From positions 1 to 35,180 of the forward strand of contig CAISCV010000163.1 in the NCBI GenBank assembly GCA_903883945.1: a stretch of DNA of 35,180 nucleotides, read 5' to 3'. The notes below the pieces were generated by a model. That model was given only the letters and a program-made list of their open reading frames with translations. It searched no databases and had not been told where the DNA came from. The position numbers and the translations under genes were made by a program. The first letter of the stretch is position 1. Every line of letters begins with the position of its first letter. The stretch is from an uncultured Chitinophagaceae bacterium. GTDB taxonomy: Bacteria > Bacteroidota > Bacteroidia > Chitinophagales > Chitinophagaceae. Shown one piece after another: positions 623-35,180 of this stretch.

Positions 623-695
623 TGATCCCGTTGGGACTCGAACCCAAGACCCCATCATTAAAAGTGATGTGCTCTACCAACTGAGCTACGAGATC
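623..695 (-). tRNA. tRNA-Lys (anticodon TTT)
   Basis: On the minus strand a full 73-nt cloverleaf can be drawn. The acceptor arm GATCTCG/CGGGATC carries one G-T pair and is followed by discriminator A. The D arm includes GCTC...GAGC. The anticodon stem CATCA/TGATG carries the loop CTTTTAA, so the anticodon is TTT (lysine). The T arm contains TTCGAGT. CCA is not encoded. It is a single isolated tRNA gene followed by the terminator at 575-609. No integrase or duplicated tRNA end is visible nearby. Confidence 0.93.
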
Positions 696-4620: not shown

Positions 4621-4767
4621 TCAGGAGATTTAAGTTAAATCTCCTGATTTCTTTTCCATGTTTCCAGAGATTCAACTCAAATCTCCAGAGATTCAAACCA
4701 AAACTCCAACGTTTTATACCATATTCCCAGAGTTTCAACTCAAATCTCCAGAGATTTAAAAAGGATG
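4621..4767. repeat. 21-nt-period tandem array 1, seven units
   Basis: Units begin at 4621, 4642, 4663, 4684, 4705, 4726 and 4747, always 21 nt apart. Units 1, 3, 4, 6 and 7 resemble TCCAGAGATTCAACTCAAAT(C); units 2 and 5 have diverged but keep the spacing and a TCC start. The first unit also forms a perfect 12-bp hairpin with the start of the second (TCAGGAGATTTA, loop AGT, TAAATCTCCTGA, 4621-4647) followed by a T-rich tail, so it could also terminate transcription from mrp. There are no unique spacers, so it is not CRISPR. Confidence 0.75.
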
Positions 4768-4991
4768 TATGAACAGGCAGTCAATCTGACTATGGACGTT
4801 TAGCGTTGTTAAAGAGACTACACAGTATGTAATCAATTCCGGACACCCATTTATGAAGACTCGGCGTGTTACCCTGTTTATTTACAATGACATGGATTAT
4901 TTTTAGTGAGATTACTTATAATTTTGAAAAGGCTGCTTCGTGCCTTACAATTACGTGGACTTGTACCAGGGAGATGTCTCCTATCGTCGAC

Positions 4992-5038
4992 ATGACGTTC
5001 ACAAGTTTCGAGAAAGCTCGAATTAAAAACACGTCATT
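4992..5038. repeat. Nested inverted repeats
   Basis: TTCGAG (5007-5012) pairs with CTCGAA (5017-5022) around AAAG. Around it, ATGACGT pairs with ACGTCAT at the edges of the segment. The two-tier arrangement suggests a structured RNA or a protein-binding site, but no gene association is evident. Confidence 0.3.
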
Positions 5039-5319
5039 CCCATTTTTTTCTGGTGAGCCTGATGAACCATTCGCTGATAACTAAGAAAATCCAGCATCCA
5101 TTCACCGGAGCCAGTATCCATAAAACCAGTTTCCCAGTTAATCAATCGAATTACCTTACTGTAATGAATAGTCAGAAAGCTCTAAATACAAAAGCTACCA
5201 CCTGTTACAATAGCAAGTACTACGATAAAAGCACCAATATTTGAAATGGAACAACCGATTAGGGCTAAAGATTTATATTGCATCGTTTTAAAACCAACTG
5301 AAATTAATAATTCAACAAG

Positions 5320-6771: not shown

Positions 6772-9039
6772 ATGGCATTTGACATCGAAATGATTAAGAA
6801 GGTTTATGCAGAGATGCCTGCTAAAGTAGAAGCTGCACGTAAGGCTCTTGGCAGACCGCTTACCTTGTCTGAGAAGATTTTATTTTCTCACTTGCACCCC
6901 GATCAGCAATTAGAAAATTTTGGAAGAGGAAAGTCTTATGTAGACTTTGCGCCAGACCGTGTAGCTATGCAAGATGCTACTGCTCAGATGGCATTGTTAC
7001 AGTTTATGCAAGCGGGTCGTCCTAAAGTGGCTGTACCTTCTACCGTGCATTGCGATCACTTAATTACCGCTAAGGTTGGTGCTAAAACGGATTTGGCTGT
7101 TGCAAATACAGAAAGTAAAGAAGTATATGATTTCTTGGCGTCTGTTTCTGATAAATATGGTATTGGTTTCTGGAAACCAGGTGCAGGTATTATTCACCAG
7201 GTTGTTTTAGAAAACTATGCATTCCCAGGTGGAATGATGATTGGAACAGACAGCCATACCGTTAATGCGGGTGGTTTGGGCATGGTTGCCATTGGCGTTG
7301 GTGGTGCTGATGCTTGTGATGTAATGGCAGGTTTGGCTTGGGAACTAAAATGGCCTAAGCTGATTGGTGTTAAACTAACTGGGAAATTGAACGGTTGGGC
7401 TGCCCCTAAAGATGTAATCCTAAAGGTGGCTGGTATCCTTACTGTAAAAGGTGGTACGGGTGCTATTGTTGAATATTTTGGAGAAGGTGCTGCTGCTATG
7501 AGCTGTACTGGTAAGGGTACTATCTGTAACATGGGTGCAGAAATAGGTGCAACTACTTCTACTTTCGGATATGATGAAAGCATGAGCCGCTATCTGGCTT
7601 CAACAGGTCGTGCTGATGTAGCTGCTGCAGCAGATGCCATCAAAGCGGACTTGAATGCGGATCCAGAAGTATATGCTGATCCAGCTAAGTACTTTGATGA
7701 AATAATAGAATTAGATTTAAATACACTAGAACCACATTTGAATGGTCCTTTCACGCCAGATTTAGCGACACCTATTTCTAAAATGAAAGAAGTAGCTGCT
7801 GCCAACGGATGGCCTAATAAAGTAGAATGGGGATTGATAGGTTCTTGTACCAACTCTTCTTACGAAGATTTGTCAAGAGCGGCTTCTATTGCCAAACAAG
7901 CTATTGCGAAAGGATTGGTTACTAAGGCAGAATTTGGTATCAACCCAGGTTCAGAACAAGTACGTTATACGGCTGACAGAGATGGTTTGTTGGGAACTTT
8001 CACTGATTTGAATGCAACTATCTTCACCAATGCTTGTGGACCTTGTATTGGTATGTGGGACAGAATGGGTGCTGAGAAGAAAGAAAAGAACACGATTGTT
8101 CATAGTTTCAACAGAAACTTTGCTAAGCGTGCAGATGGCAATCCTAATACCTATGCCTTCGTAGCTTCTCCAGAAATTGTAGCCGCTATTGCTATTGCAG
8201 GTGATCTATCTTTCAATCCAATTACTGACACCTTGACCAATAATAAAGGCGAACAAGTGAAATTGGATGCTCCTACAGGTGATGAGTTACCAGTGAAAGG
8301 TTTTGCAGTAGAAGATGCTGGTTACCAAGCACCTGCTGCTGATGGTAGTGGTGTTCAGGTTGCAGTAGATCCTGCTTCTAAGAGATTACAATTATTAGCG
8401 CCTTTTGCCGAATGGGAAGGAACTGACTTAAAAGGTTTGAAGTTGTTAATTAAGGCGAAAGGCAAGTGTACCACAGATCATATCTCTATGGCGGGTCCTT
8501 GGTTAAAGTTCCGTGGTCATTTAGATAATATCAGTAACAATATGTTGATTGGTGCAGTTAACTATTACAACGAAAAGACTGACAGCGTTAAAAACCAGTT
8601 AACGGGAGAATATGGACCCGTTCCTGCTACCCAACGTGCTTACAAAGCTGCAGGCATTGGTTCTATTGTTGTAGGTGACGAAAACTACGGTGAAGGTTCT
8701 TCTCGCGAACACGCTGCTATGGAACCTCGCTTCTTGGGTGTACGTGTGGTTTTGACAAAGTCTTTTGCCCGTATTCACGAAACAAACTTGAAGAAGCAAG
8801 GGATGTTGGCATTGACTTTTGCTGACAAAGCTGACTATGATAAGATTCAAGAAGATGATACCATTGATGTAGTTGGGCTAACCACCTTTGCACCGGGTAC
8901 ACCATTGACTTTGGTATTTACCCACGCTGATGGCACTAGTGATACCATCATTGCTAACCATACTTACAACCAACAACAAATTGAGTGGTTTAAGGAAGGT
9001 GCTGCATTGAATATCATCAAGAAGCAAATTGGTAAATAA
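6772..9039 (+). CDS. acn: Aconitate hydratase
   Basis: A 755-residue aconitase of the mitochondrial type, interconverting citrate and isocitrate in the TCA cycle. The three [4Fe-4S] cysteine ligands are visible: Cys359 in [10 protein letters not shown], and Cys422 and Cys425 in ACGPCIG. The substrate-binding blocks [11 protein letters not shown] and, in the C-terminal swivel domain, [15 protein letters not shown] with the catalytic serine region are intact. Length matches the family. It faces the NADP-isocitrate dehydrogenase gene, the next enzyme of the pathway, across a shared terminator. Its stop is immediately followed by a short TAATAAGTAATAAGTAG-type repeat. Confidence 0.96.
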
Positions 9040-9084
9040 TTACGTAATAAGTAATAAGTAGTACGTTATAGGTTTAAAATATAA

Positions 9085-13361: not shown

Positions 13362-13451
13362 TTAGTTATAAGTTATAAGTTGTTAGTGACCCCTGTTATA
13401 CCTTTGTTGATTATTAATGCTTAACACTAACAACTAACCATTAATAACTAA
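13362..13451. repeat. TTAGT-type imperfect inverted repeat between the DUF2007 gene and cdsA
   Basis: The left arm 13362-13388 and right arm 13425-13451 are both 27 nt and pair at 22 of 27 positions, separated by 36 nt. The arms consist of TTAGTTATAAGTT- and GTTGTTAGTG-like words. The right arm overlaps the TAG stop codon of the DUF2007 gene (13448-13450). Confidence 0.7.
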
Positions 13452-14689: not shown

Positions 14690-14841
14690 GATTAGTTATC
14701 AGTGTTATCAATTAGTTTTTTTCATCAACCATTAATAACTAACCATTAATCACTAAAGCAGTTCTATATATTTGCTTAAAGTGGCGAATTTACATGCAAA
14801 TAAACTAATAACTAACCACTAACAACTTATAACTTAATTAC
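14690..14841. repeat. TTAGT-type repeat region between the CPBP gene and dusB
   Basis: Two TTAGTTATCAGTG-like words at 14691-14720 are mirrored by reverse-complement words (ATTAATAACTAACCATTAAT) at 14731-14755. More copies (CTAATAACTAACCACTAACA) follow directly before the ATG of dusB. The arms match for about 11 of the first 13 bases and then decay. Confidence 0.55.
14767..14774 (+). promoter_or_regulatory. -7 promoter element of dusB
   Basis: TATATTTG fits TAnnTTTG exactly, 67 nt before the ATG. The transcribed leader would contain the TTAGT-type repeat words. Confidence 0.5.
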
Positions 14842-20966: not shown

Positions 20967-21131
20967 CATTTACACGGTCGCGAAGACCATTTACACTGCC
21001 GAAATCTTTTTTAGACATCCGCAAAGGTCGTTTACACGGGCTCAAAGGTCATTTACACGGTCGCGAAGGTCATTTACACCGTCGCAAAGTGCATTTACAC
21101 GGTTGGGAAGTATAATTCGACCGTGTAAATG
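20967..21131. repeat. 21-nt-period tandem array 2, seven units plus an inverted end copy
   Basis: Seven direct units with ATTTACAC-like cores follow each other at 21, 20, 21, 21, 21 and 21 nt (core A at 20972, 20993, 21013, 21034, 21055, 21076 and 21097). Consensus is about CATTTACACGGTCGCGAAGG. The first 14 nt (20967-20980) recur exactly as reverse complement at 21118-21131, so the array is bounded by an inverted repeat. It is not CRISPR because there are no spacers. Confidence 0.85.
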
Positions 21132-21252: not shown

Positions 21253-21987
21253 ATGAGAGTTGCTTTGTTCGTTCCCTGTTATGTTGATCAATTCTATCCA
21301 AACGTAGCCATTGCAACCCTAGAACTACTTGAGAAGCATGGTTGTATTGTTTTTTATCCCTCCAAACAAACCTGTTGTGGTCAGCCGATGGCAAATAGTG
21401 GCTATGAACATGAGGCTGAGGGTTGTAGTCAATTGTTTGCGGAGAACTTTGCAGGATACGATTATATCGTTTGCCCCTCTGGTAGTTGTACGCTACACAT
21501 AAAACACCACCTGCACACCGAAAAGAATGCACTGGAGGAAGCACTTATCCGTAAAACGGTCTATGAACTTTGCGAGTTTATGGTAGATGTTTTGAAAGTA
21601 ACAAGTATTAAAGCAAGCTTCCCACACAAGGTTGGTATGCACCAAAGTTGTCATGGTCAAAGAGGTTTACATTTAAGCCATATGTCGGAACTGAATGCGG
21701 AACCTTTTTCTAAGCCCGGAAGTTTATTGGAAATGGTGAAAGATGTAGAACTGATTAAGTTAGACAGGATTGATGAATGTTGTGGTTTTGGTGGTACCTT
21801 CTGTGTAGCAGAAGAAGCCGTGAGTGCGAAGATGGGCAAAGACAGGGTAGCAGACCATGTGCGCCATGACGCAGAATACATTACAGGTGCCGACATGAGT
21901 TGCCTGATGCACATGGAAGGCATATTGAAAAGACAAAATAGTAAGACGAAGATTATTCATATAGCTGAAATACTAAATAGTGATTAG
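21253..21987 (+). CDS. lutA: LutA/YkgE-type (Fe-S)-binding protein of lactate utilisation
   Basis: A 244-residue cysteine-rich protein of the heterodisulfide-reductase CCG family, subunit of the LutABC iron-sulfur L-lactate oxidising complex in the cytosol. Cysteine blocks in order: PCYVDQFYP, TCCGQPMANSGY (about residue 40), CPSGSCTLHIK (about 76), HQSCHGQRG (about 133) and the second CCG motif ECCGFGGTFCV (about 176). Full length. First gene of lutABC. Its TAG stop lies inside a TTAGT-type repeat that separates it from lutB. Confidence 0.92.
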   Translation: MRVALFVPCYVDQFYPNVAIATLELLEKHGCIVFYPSKQTCCGQPMANSGYEHEAEGCSQLFAENFAGYDYIVCPSGSCTLHIKHHLHTEKNALEEALIRKTVYELCEFMVDVLKVTSIKASFPHKVGMHQSCHGQRGLHLSHMSELNAEPFSKPGSLLEMVKDVELIKLDRIDECCGFGGTFCVAEEAVSAKMGKDRVADHVRHDAEYITGADMSCLMHMEGILKRQNSKTKIIHIAEILNSD

Positions 21988-22060
21988 TTATTGGTAGTTA
22001 GTGCTTAGTTATAAAGAAGAACTGATCACTAATTATTAATAACTAACCACTAATAACTAA
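21984..22060. repeat. TTAGT-type inverted repeat between lutA and lutB
   Basis: TTAGTTATTGGTAGTTAGT (21984-22002) pairs with ACTAACCACTAATAACTAA (22042-22060) at 17 of 19 positions, and further direct copies (CCACTAATAAC) follow up to 22071. The left arm begins at the stop codon of lutA (TAG, 21985-21987). The hairpin could modulate lutB expression within the operon. Confidence 0.7.
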
Positions 22061-22078
22061 CCACTAATAACAAGAAAA

Positions 22079-23452
22079 GTGCATAGTACAATTACCAATC
22101 ATGCGGATGCGGCGATAAACTTTAACCTTGACGAACCGAGGGTAGACTGGCATGATAAGACGCTTTGGTTTATAAGAGAGAAAAGAGATTTAGCTAGCCA
22201 TGCCATACCCGAATGGGAACAACTACGAGAATATGCTTCGCAGATTAAGAATAATGTATTGAGCAACCTTAGCCAATACTTACAAGATTTTGAAGAAAAA
22301 GCAAAAGCGAATGGCGTAATTGTGCATTGGGCGGCAGATGCAGCAGAACACAACCAGATAGTACATAGCATACTGAAGAAGCACCAGATAGACCGTATGG
22401 TGAAAAGCAAAAGTATGCTTACAGAAGAATGTGGACTGAATGAATATCTTGAACACAATGGCGTTGAAGTAATAGACACCGACCTTGGCGAACGCATTGT
22501 ACAATTGGCGCAAGAACCACCAAGCCATATTGTGTTACCTTGTATTCATTGGAAGAAAGAAGAGATTGGAGAATTGTTTCACAAACACTTAGGAACAAAG
22601 AAAGGAGCATCGGACCCAAAATACCTTACAGCGGCAGCAAGAGAACACTTAAGGGAAACTTTCCTTACAAGACGAGCAGCATTGACAGGCGTAAACTTTG
22701 CCATTGCCGAAACAGGGGAGTTTGTAGTGAGTACCAATGAAGGCAATGCAGATATGGGCGCACACCTGGCAGATGTTCATATTGCGTGTATGGGTATCGA
22801 AAAGATTATTCCTAAGCAAGCGCACCTTGGTGTATTTCTTCGTTTGTTGGCAAGGAGTGCGACAGGGCAACCCATTACTACTTACTCCAGTCATTTCAAG
22901 AAGCCGCAACCACACCAGGAAGTGCATATTGTTTTGGTTGATAATGGCAGAAGCGTACATCTAGGAAAGGAAGATTTCAGGAACTCTTTGAAATGTATTC
23001 GTTGTGCAGCTTGTATGAACACTTGCCCTGTTTACAGAAGAAGTGGCGGACATAGTTACCACAATGCAGTGGCAGGCCCTATTGGAAGTATCCTTACGCC
23101 CAACTTTGATATGCGTGCCAACAAGGATTTACCATTTGCGTCTACCCTTTGTGGCAGTTGCAGCAACGTATGTCCCGTGAAGATTGATATACACGATCAG
23201 TTGTACAAATGGCGTCAGGTATTGATGAAGGAAGGACTAGGCCCTACAACAAAGAATGCAAGTATGAAGATGATGGGATGGGTATTATCAAAACCTGCCC
23301 TTTATGATATTTCCGGAAAGGCTGCACGTATGGTTTTAAAATATACGCCGTTTGTAGTGAGCAACAAATTGAATCCTTGGTACAAACAACGGGAAATGCC
23401 TGCACCACCAAAAGAATCATTTAAAGAATGGTATAAGAAGAACAGAGGATAG
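22079..23452 (+). CDS. lutB: LutB/YkgF-type iron-sulfur lactate utilisation protein
   Basis: A 457-residue LutB homologue. Residues up to about 290 form a LUD domain (MVKSKSMLTEECGLNEYLE, VNFAIAETGEFVVSTNEGN). Two ferredoxin-type motifs follow: CIRCAACMNTCPVYRRSGG from Cys306 and CGSCSNVCPVKIDIHDQLY from Cys358, each giving four cysteines, and a helical C-terminal domain. The start is GTG at 22079, chosen because the residues after it, with NHADAAINFN, match the usual N-terminus; no nearby in-frame ATG replaces it. The GTG lies 8 bp past the TTAGT-type repeat. The TAG stop begins another short repeat (TAGTTTTTAGTGGTAAG). Confidence 0.92.
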   Translation: MHSTITNHADAAINFNLDEPRVDWHDKTLWFIREKRDLASHAIPEWEQLREYASQIKNNVLSNLSQYLQDFEEKAKANGVIVHWAADAAEHNQIVHSILKKHQIDRMVKSKSMLTEECGLNEYLEHNGVEVIDTDLGERIVQLAQEPPSHIVLPCIHWKKEEIGELFHKHLGTKKGASDPKYLTAAAREHLRETFLTRRAALTGVNFAIAETGEFVVSTNEGNADMGAHLADVHIACMGIEKIIPKQAHLGVFLRLLARSATGQPITTYSSHFKKPQPHQEVHIVLVDNGRSVHLGKEDFRNSLKCIRCAACMNTCPVYRRSGGHSYHNAVAGPIGSILTPNFDMRANKDLPFASTLCGSCSNVCPVKIDIHDQLYKWRQVLMKEGLGPTTKNASMKMMGWVLSKPALYDISGKAARMVLKYTPFVVSNKLNPWYKQREMPAPPKESFKEWYKKNRG

Positions 23453-23523
23453 TTTTTAGTGGTAAGTTTTTAGTGGTAAGTGGTGATTTAAAATTAAGAA
23501 TAAAGAATTTAAAACGATACGAA

Positions 23524-27924: not shown

Positions 27925-28158
27925 TCTGCAATGTTAGCGAAGATATTGCGGTGTAAGCGTTTTATTTAAAATGACTTATAAGCTTACATGAATCTAAGAT
28001 TACGCTAATCCTTAGTTCCGTTCTTTATTTTAGTTGAGGAAGATAATGTGCGCTAACTTGTGTTTCTCAATTTCATTTTTAAGCCTTATACGTTTACTTA
28101 TTACCCCTTCTTACTTCTTAATTCTTAATTCCTGATTCCTAATTCCTGCTCCAACCGC

Positions 28159-28174: not shown

Positions 28175-29959
28175 ATGAAGAATATCAGGAATTTTTGCAT
28201 CATTGCACACATCGATCACGGTAAAAGTACATTGGCCGACCGTTTATTGGAACACACCAAAACAATTGGTGAACGAGATATGATGAACCAAGTGTTGGAT
28301 GATATGGACTTGGAGCGCGAAAAAGGAATTACCATTAAAAGCCACGCCATACAGATAAATTACCCTTCCAAGGGAATTAACTATGTATTGAACCTAATAG
28401 ACACGCCTGGCCACGTTGACTTTAGCTATGAAGTAAGCCGCGCATTGGCAGCTTGTGAGGGTGCATTGTTATTGGTGGACGCAAGCCAAGGTATTCAAGC
28501 ACAAACTATCAGCAATTTGTATCTAGCCATTGAGAATGATTTAGAAATTATTCCCGTTATCAATAAAATTGATATGGACGGCGCCATGATTCCAGAGGTT
28601 CAAGACCAAATCATTGACTTAATTGGTTGTAAAGTAGACGATATATTGCTGGCTAGTGGTAAAAGTGGCATTGGTATCGAAGAAATACTAGAAGCTATCA
28701 TTGCACGTATTCCTGCCCCAAAAGGAGATTATGATGCCCCATTGCAAGCTTTAATATTTGACAGTGTTTATAATAGTTTCAGGGGTATTATTATCTACTA
28801 CCGTATTTTGAATGGGGTGCTAAAAAAGAATGACAAGATACGTTTCATTGCTTCGGGTTCTGATTACAATGCAGATGAAGTAGGTGTATTAAAATTGACC
28901 ATGACTCCGAAAGAAGAAGTAAAAGCGGGTGATGTTGGCTATATTATAACCGGTATTAAAAATGCCAAAGAGGTGAAAGTGGGTGATACTATCACCCTTG
29001 CCAATAACCCTGGTGAATTGATAAATGGTTTTAAGGAGGTGAAGCCAATGGTATTTGCAGGTATATTTCCCGTGGAGACAGATGCCTTCGAGGAGTTGAG
29101 GGAATGTATGGATAAGTTGCAGTTGAATGATGCCTCTCTCACCTTCGAATTGGAAACGTCACAGGCATTGGGCTTTGGGTTCCGTTGCGGATTCTTAGGC
29201 TTGTTGCACATGGAGATTATTCAGGAGCGATTGGAACGTGAATTTAACCAAACTGTAATAACAACAGTTCCCAATGTGGGCTTTATTGCCTACACTTCTA
29301 AAGGTGACAAAGTAATTGTAAACAATCCCTCTGAAATGCCCGAACCAACTCGGATTGACCGGATAGAAGAGCCCTACATAAGGGCTCAGATTATTACTTC
29401 CCCAGATTATATTGGCAATATTATGACCCTTTGCTTGGGCAAAAGAGGCATATTGCTCAATCAATCCTACCTTACGCCTACTCGTGTAGAGCTAACTTTC
29501 GAATTACCTCTTACCGAGATAGTTTTCGATTTCTACGACAAACTTAAAAGCCAAACAAGGGGATATGCTTCCTTCGATTATACCCCAATTGGCATGAGAG
29601 ATGCAGATATTGTAAAGATGGACATTTTACTGAATGGAGAGAAAGTGGATGCATTGAGTGCTTTGATACATAGAAGCAGGGCAGCGGACTTTGGTCGTAA
29701 ACTTTGTGAGAAGTTAAAAGAGTTATTGACTAAACAACAGTTTCAGATTGCCATTCAAGCAGCTATTGGTGCTAAAGTTATAGCCCGTGAAAATATCAGC
29801 GCCATGAGAAAAGATGTTACCGCTAAATGCTATGGAGGTGACATCAGCCGTAAGCGCAAACTATTGGAAAAACAAAAAGAAGGAAAGAAACGTATGCGCC
29901 AGATTGGCAATGTGGAAGTTCCACAGGAGGCATTTTTGGCGGTACTTAAATTGGATTAG
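28175..29959 (+). CDS. lepA: Elongation factor 4 (LepA) GTPase
   Basis: A 594-residue translational GTPase with the normal LepA length. G motifs: AHIDHGKST (residues 9-17), [27 protein letters not shown] and a later ASGKSGIG. The domain II-III region follows, then the LepA-specific C-terminal domain ([35 protein letters not shown]). It back-translocates or remodels stalled ribosomes. The start is fixed by the TATATTTG promoter 8 bp upstream. Its TAG stop begins a TTAGT-type repeat shared with the convergent prfB gene. Confidence 0.97.
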
Positions 29960-30034
29960 TTGTTAGTGGTTAGTTATTAGTTGTTAGACTAAGCGAAATT
30001 ATTTACTACCCTAACATCTAATAACTAACAACTA
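29956..30034. repeat. TTAGT-type inverted repeat between lepA and prfB
   Basis: TTAGTTGTTAGTGGTTAGTT continues to 29987, and the reverse-complement words lie at 30011-30034. TAGTTATTAGTTGTTAG (29971-29987) pairs with 30011-30027 at 16 of 17 positions. The lepA TAG (29957-29959) is in the left arm and the prfB TAG (read on the minus strand, 30034-30032) is in the right arm, so the hairpin sits exactly between two convergent stops and may act as a terminator. Confidence 0.75.
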
Positions 30035-34989: not shown

Positions 34990-35180
34990 GTTAACGTAAA
35001 AAGGTATCATTTAAAGCTAATAAAAGGCTCTTCTAGTAATAAAAGGTATCTTTCTTCGCGACAAATGGCACCTTCTAGCAATAAAAGGTCATTTTAAAAT
35101 GAAATAAATGACCTTCTAGTAATAAAAGGTATCTTTCTTCGCGACAAATGGTACCTTCTAGCAATAAAAGGTCATTTTAA
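34990..35180. repeat. 21-nt-period array 3 with 83-bp higher-order repeat
   Basis: Units start at 34990, 35011, 35032, 35053, 35074, 35095 (20 nt), 35115, 35136 and 35157. The TCTAGTAATAAAAGGTATCT unit alternates with a TCTTCGCGACAAATGG unit. The block 35032-35114 recurs from 35115 with one difference visible (GGCACC against GGTACC), giving an 83-bp repeat. The window ends inside it, so its length is unknown. GGTCATTT and AAATGACC words occur in both orientations. Confidence 0.8.

Follow-up and report, generated by a model that had tools for sequence, protein, structure and literature searches.

Intergenic minisatellites with a pitch of two helical turns and free unit sequence in a genus of Chitinophagaceae

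Tandem arrays scattered through the genomes of a Chitinophagaceae genus are best read as intergenic minisatellites of a pitch-locked class: their unit sequence is free, and their pitch corresponds to two B-DNA turns (20.5-21 bp). What stays constant among them is their spacing rather than their letters, most arrays having a repeat sequence of their own, and the class was found in the genus sampled and was absent from the other genera sampled. The analysis started from a window of 35,180 nt, which spans the full length of contig C163 in a draft genome of 4.09 Mb and 314 contigs (G000, referred to as the own genome). An earlier note had described in this window three gene-free arrays with a fixed 21-nt period and different unit sequences. 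This observation was partly confirmed: its main part holds and extends far past the window.

The arrays of the window and their period across the genus

The three stretches are present in the window, and none of them overlaps a gene predicted by our hexamer script (Table 1). The period of ~21 bp attributed to all three held for arrays 1 and 2 and had to be given up for array 3. Anchor steps were 21, 21, 20 and 22 in the regular part of array 1 and 21, 41, 21, 21 and 21 in array 2, and these two arrays had lag scores of 43 and 49, respectively, whereas the highest scores in six Markov-shuffled versions of the window were 12-18. Array 3, with anchor steps of 42, 41 and 42, showed no repetition at 21 itself, the match fraction being 0.39 at lag 21, 0.56 at lag 42 and 0.84 at lag 83. 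Its lag scan gave two pieces (21 and 18), marginal against the shuffles, although its Tandem Repeats Finder rows scored 136-282.

Two short words are shared by arrays 2 and 3, at the places previously reported. The 11-mer AAGGTCATTTA occurs exactly at 21045-21055 and 21066-21076 and inverted at 35105-35115, and the 9-mer GTCGCGAAG occurs exactly at 20977-20985 and 21060-21068 and inverted at 35054-35062 and 35137-35145. These words turned out to belong to a local family around arrays 2 and 3 and not to be a signature of the whole class. The inverted repeat at the start of array 1 matches its own inverse at 96%, and a related array with 73% identity lies at G000:C209:27726-27824. A 73% copy of array 2 was found at G000:C8:6462-6640, and the gene adjoining array 2 has a shorter version of the array upstream in G001 too (L038). 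Kin of array 3 lie on contigs C311, C172, C115, C158 and C237, and a variant of the motif CCTAATATTGGCAATAAGTACGTTTTGA adjoins all five (5/5). Downstream of array 1, window positions 4945-5073 hold a dispersed repeat whose core (5031-5073) is found again in numerous contigs belonging to several genus genomes.

Table 1. Tandem arrays and short-period repeats located in the window
Feature	Position in the window	Strand	Description
Array 1	4621..4767	.	~21-bp units around dyad AATCTCCAGAGATT; 27-bp near-perfect inverted repeat (4621-4647) at start
Array 2	20967..21131	.	21-bp units around CATTTACACGGTCGCGAAGGT with a single 41-bp step; closes with an inverted unit copy, CGACCGTGTAAATG
Array 3	34990..35180	.	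41-42-bp modules with AAGGT..ACCTT dyads and CTAGYAATAA linker; 83-bp double unit; cut by contig end
7-/14-bp repeats	13364-13451, 14727-14827, 21985-22071, 23451-23484, 28108-28148, 29956-30034		

Periods were compared by lag autocorrelation between a genus sample of 1.15 Mb, drawn from the own genome and six further species without the directed stretches, and three sets from other genera that served as controls (1.67 Mb); 72 LutB loci were classed as other genera because their protein identity was at most 78%. Periods of 20-22, 40-44 or 62-63 bp were counted as 21n. Results showed 117 hits in the genus (85 at 21n, 23 at 14 bp and 9 other) and 32 in other genera (6 at 21n, 7 at 14 bp and 19 other), and shuffles of six sets gave none. 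With heptamers set aside, the 21n share was 85/94 in the genus, over seven species, versus 6/25 in other genera. The 7-/14-bp repeats (e.g. TAATAACTAACCAC and AACCATTAATAACT), represented by the 23/117 hits at lag 14, are a repeat class of the genus distinct from the 21n arrays.

Tandem Repeats Finder, an indel-tolerant method, was applied to arrays of at least 90 bp with a period of 15-70. It placed 54 of the 58 genus arrays at 21n, and 44 of 48 when we left out the directed stretches of the own genome, which had been chosen for matching the window arrays and account for 10/58. The same cut-offs gave 1/8 at 21n in other genera, and a further 351-kb control contained one array, of period 24. 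Two-copy repeats of 20-22 bp in other genera were set aside as a probable pile-up at the threshold. In own contigs picked blind (33 stretches, contigs chosen by number), 7 of 8 arrays of at least 90 bp were at 21n; for G004, G006, G008, G012 and part of G007 and G011, the contig numbers had previously been seen in hit lists. From the 11 arrays of at least 90 bp and the 20 of all sizes counted over 327 kb, with multiples accepted up to 105 bp, ~140 and ~250 arrays, respectively, were extrapolated for the own genome. The earlier note would have taken the lack of a genome-wide excess at 21 nt as refuting its proposal; the samples of the genus gave a very pronounced excess at multiples of 21, so the proposal stands on this point.

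Unit sequences and the fate of arrays at orthologous sites

All-against-all comparison (blastn, 1e-4) distributed the 58 arrays among 47 families without mutual similarity, the largest of which had four members, and when each family was given one vote, 43/47 were at 21n. No motif common to the printed units was seen by eye, and neither family clustering nor flank words revealed a palindromic sequence shared across the genome, the only flank words common to at least four own arrays being those of the array-3 family. As judged by eye, units run head-to-tail with no spacers. Copies of the two families that were viewed lie at other sites, where the flanks, also judged by eye, are unrelated save for one orthologous pair (own C69 and G004 C3).

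Unit length was kept through substitutions. In a 41-bp family of 11 loci, 37 of the 44 anchor intervals were exactly 41 and two were 82, with ~117 substitutions counted by parsimony over 37 distinct units. The five other intervals (26, 26, 26, 49 and 110) are not near 41 and were left unassigned to units. No interval between 36 and 46 other than 41 was found, a count in which compensating indels would stay hidden. Similarly, all intervals of a 21-bp family (35/35) were multiples of 21, with 32 substitutions. Gap openings per substitution amounted to 0.076 in 54 arrays versus 0.180 in intergenic alignments (p 1e-9), a ratio that is only suggestive because the two sets of intergenic controls gave conflicting values (0.218 and 0.060), the gap costs differ from those used on the arrays, and minisatellites of other genera gave 0.041 with a minimum length of 90 bp (8 arrays; p 0.22 versus the genus) and 0.141 with a minimum of 60 bp (23 arrays).

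We then compared orthologous sites. At L020:2144-2387, an array was present in all six species in which both flanks could be mapped (the own genome and five others), with a best lag of 21 in five species, G001, G004, G006 and G008 among them, and of 42 in G007. The own unit at this site, AAATCCAACATCGGGAGTGAT, differs in every other species, and G001 carries ~4 units. G004, G006 and G007 have the array tail in common and differ in the inner units, which suggests local re-homogenisation. At L020:9390-9601, arrays were found in 5/6 species (none in G007), the 41-bp family occupying the site in the own genome, G001 and G003, and an unrelated 21-bp unit occupying it in G004 and G006. The site of array 1 carries an array only in the own genome and in G002 (21-bp, other sequence) of eight species; in the other six, no array lies within 900 nt. 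The L027 site holds weak arrays of other sequence in G002 (lag 63), G003 (lag 22, contig end) and G004 (lag 42), and no 21n array was found in G001, G007 or G008, a comparison that depends partly on weak hits (scores 19-32). Arrays thus come and go between species. The 43/47 families, the orthologous sites and the 41-bp family together show that the note was right about a conserved period with drifting sequence, and that this pattern is much stronger genus-wide than in the window.

Repeats of other kinds were observed in the same loci. L020:146-240 (G000:C158) is a ~95-bp sequence with copies 96-100% identical in eight other own contigs listed, recently dispersed and of another kind. Two MITE-like families were seen in L018: a ~165-bp dispersed family at 7107-7271 with fixed inverted ends and 20 listed copies in G001, and a ~172-bp dispersed family at 8892-9063 with fixed ends and copies in several species. 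The sequence TGTCATCTCCTGAAATAGCTTGTC at L027:12315-12338 abuts a 21-bp array; exact copies, several of them near a contig end, occur in numerous G003 contigs and in some contigs from G001, G002, G004 and G008. At L046:1043-1472 (G012), polypyrimidine arrays of 23 and 47 bp with an N run inside lie upstream of a LutA-like gene and represent a different repeat type.

Symmetry, genomic context and known repeat systems

Tests of context, dyad symmetry and folding were restricted to arrays of the own genome, G007 and G011 (55 arrays). Against a null in which columns were permuted and the direct repeat was kept, dyad symmetry was significant at p<0.05 in 27 of 54 arrays, 17 of which reached p<0.01, so that about half of the arrays, array 2 included, have no significant dyad; the test excluded one array that has a 14-bp part, together with lag classes 10, 12, 14, 15, 48 and 55, and retained four probably coding arrays. 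For the arrays of the window, p was 0.007 (array 1), 0.58 (array 2, not significant) and 0.003 (array 3). Folding energy ranked at or below 0.05 of the column-permuted null in 28/51 arrays, with a mean z of -2.5, after removal of three gene-overlapping arrays and one too short and trimming of the arrays to 260 bp and whole units. Folding showed no strand preference: out of 19 co-directional contexts, the sense strand had the more stable fold in 9. Dyads and folding without a preference for the sense strand point to a symmetry of the DNA rather than of an RNA. In 50 arrays, the four probably coding ones having been dropped, the 10.5-bp AA/TT harmonic was above the column-permuted null (z 3.6). 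Against dinucleotide-preserving unit shuffles, however, AA/TT was not above (z 1.2), and WW gave z 2.5 yet 3.1 at 7 bp. Because the two nulls disagree, curvature is not claimed.

With genes predicted by the home-made hexamer script, which calls about three quarters of the DNA coding, 48/55 arrays were intergenic (at most 20 bp of overlap with a predicted gene). The neighbours of the 34 arrays for which both were known were oriented ++ in 11 cases, -+ in 10, -- in 7 and +- in 6, similar to the background of gaps of at least 150 bp (75, 71, 71 and 33, respectively). These counts track the background, and a common role as gene-end or promoter elements (terminators, promoters) was rejected. Terminal inverted repeats were not found in the outer 60-nt flanks, where 4/61 arrays were above the 95th percentile of swapped pairs, and direct flank similarity of the kind left by target-site duplication exceeded the 95th percentile in 5/61, the edges of the arrays being fuzzy. 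SbcD was above the cut-off in 4/13 genus genomes versus 1/11 of other genera of the family, and loss of the hairpin nuclease SbcCD was rejected because array-bearing genomes are not separated by it (G008 and G011 have both). Mobilisation by RAYT gained no clear support: the surroundings of RAYT-like genes (85.7 kb in 20 regions selected from listed places) contained 11 hits at lags 21, 42 or 43 in 8/20 regions, four of them in one cluster, which is not clearly above the 85 hits in 1.15 Mb of the genus at a slightly stricter threshold. One RAYT-like ORF (L220:2177-2761, G000:C154; 194 aa, Y1_Tnp match) lies ~0.33 kb from a 21-bp array. None of ten scanned window proteins reached the cut-off of a replication-initiator model, and Rfam covariance models at gathering score, run on the window, L018 and L020, gave no match at the arrays, the only match being a tRNA at window 623-695.

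Bacterial minisatellites are usually viewed as slippage products whose unit length is not fixed. In plasmid iterons, direct repeats follow one another at intervals of roughly two helical turns, so that a protein loads on one face, and each origin has one iteron sequence, beside the rep gene. Our arrays resemble iterons as two-turn direct repeats (54/58 at 20-22 bp or at two- or threefold this length), but they number an extrapolated 140-250 per genome, belong to many families and are dispersed in stretches of seven species. REP/BIME elements, which go with RAYT transposases, are dispersed intergenic palindromes with a common sequence. The arrays share with them the character of dispersed palindromic intergenic DNA, one of them near a RAYT-like gene of the own genome (G000:C154), but have no common sequence, and the 8/20 RAYT-like neighbourhoods with a 21n array are not clearly above background. 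Head-to-tail units with no unique spacers, as judged by eye, distinguish them from a CRISPR array. STRR elements are heptamer direct repeats. TAACTGA heptamer direct repeats have been reported as intergenic in five Bacteroidetes (PMC4679880); such heptamers, as described there, are likewise intergenic short tandem repeats, but with a shorter unit and another period, and they are a separate class in this genome.

The nearest described case found is BrickBuilt of Porphyromonas gingivalis, an intergenic minisatellite of narrow host range with 23-nt units and predicted stem-loops, which forms one sequence family of 19 copies in ATCC 33277 with a leader, a tail and IS5-like terminal inverted repeats; 41-nt repeats are described for MITEPgRS of the same species, and the source makes mention of 22-nt repeats too (PMC4596501). 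Like BrickBuilt and MITEPgRS, the arrays studied here are minisatellites of Bacteroidota with an intergenic location (48/55), predicted stem-loops and a narrow host range. Unlike BrickBuilt, they comprise 47 unit families, have no terminal inverted repeats detected and keep a locked two-turn pitch. A search of titles and abstract openings, with subscription papers mostly uncovered, found no published account of such an array class.

Candidate explanations for the common pitch

A pitch of two B-DNA turns suggests two readings: consecutive units are bound by a factor on a single helix face, or two turns are the length measured out when the arrays are made. Both a spacing that is selected and a spacing that is set by array formation are candidates, and we slightly favour the first reading. 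Same-face binding by a hypothetical factor that reads shape is a credible explanation of how the pitch is held, although we rate it somewhat below an even chance. Such a DNA-binding factor would read shape, dyad or hairpin and not a fixed sequence, and would, by analogy with Rep proteins on iterons, occupy successive units on one helix face. Mis-phased arrays would be lost, whereas the letters would drift and be re-homogenised by unequal exchange or slippage. Because the arrays have no preference for gene orientation, their role may be in the local architecture or insulation of intergenic DNA. What weakens same-face binding is that half of the arrays have no significant dyad, that arrays come and go, that the curvature nulls disagree, and that the indel test is weak. 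The earlier note had suggested selection on spacing, for example through a same-face protein or a structured RNA, and its interpretation is partly supported; the protein, hypothetical as it is, gives the best fit, and the RNA found no support in the 9/19 contexts with a more stable sense strand.

Alternatively, the pitch could be set at birth by a genus-specific process that makes tandem copies of any sequence in 21-bp steps, in which case the arrays would need no function; we regard this as possible but rather unlikely. Such a process might, for example, make nicks in pairs at a dyad, one per strand and ~21 nt from each other, and then fill them in, or it might involve an enzyme of repair or replication that skips over two turns. 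The free unit sequence and the appearance and disappearance of arrays agree with it, and symmetric nicking would account at once for the two-turn pitch and for dyad-centred units. Moreover, arrays at periods other than 21n are no denser in the genus (4 in 1.29 Mb) than in other genera (7 in 1.32 Mb). Among low-copy repeats (fewer than 3 copies, at least 85% match), 21 is the commonest period in the genus (10/36), but these cases could be eroded arrays, and 21 is the commonest also in other genera (4/17), perhaps as a threshold effect. The ruler enzyme is itself hypothetical, and such a process does not by itself predict that so few arrays lie within genes, although selection against coding insertions could account for this.

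A little less probable again is that the period is inherited by descent from a single ancient self-spreading minisatellite or a handful of them, whole-unit copying having kept the period as the letters drifted. This would fit the recurrence of families at other sites with unrelated flanks, the one orthologous pair excepted, the end motif common to one family, and the tail shared by G004, G006 and G007 over differing inner units. Descent explains the families, but it does not explain well the common pitch of 43/47 dissimilar ones, since indels would be expected to have scattered the period among families so divergent; neither terminal inverted repeats (4/61) nor a clear enrichment near RAYT-like genes speaks for self-spreading elements.

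Chains of RNA hairpins acting at 3′ ends, in mRNA stability or as small RNAs would agree with the folding that beats column-permuted controls. They are nevertheless very unlikely, given the absence of a strand preference, of a clear orientation bias and of an Rfam match in the window, L018 and L020, and an exact two-turn pitch would not be needed by RNA. An artefact of assembly or metagenome binning is the least credible of all: the genus genomes are drafts of 130-710 contigs, MAGs among them, and several arrays lie at contig ends, but the pattern recurs in 7/7 species sampled, arrays lie inside contigs and their flanks map to other species.

Tens of dissimilar arrays with one two-turn pitch, kept at some orthologous sites, mean that spacing is separable from sequence, and they raise a clear question, namely whether selection acts on the pitch through a protein or the repeat-making machinery dictates it. 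To our knowledge, either would be new for bacteria. The class can easily be sought in any genome by autocorrelation. More tentatively, and still on the doubtful side, this lineage may use geometry-coded intergenic DNA that would be recognised by its two-turn pitch and dyads, through either a shape-reading factor or a ruler enzyme, in a manner that might be likened to the satellite repeats serving eukaryotic chromatin.
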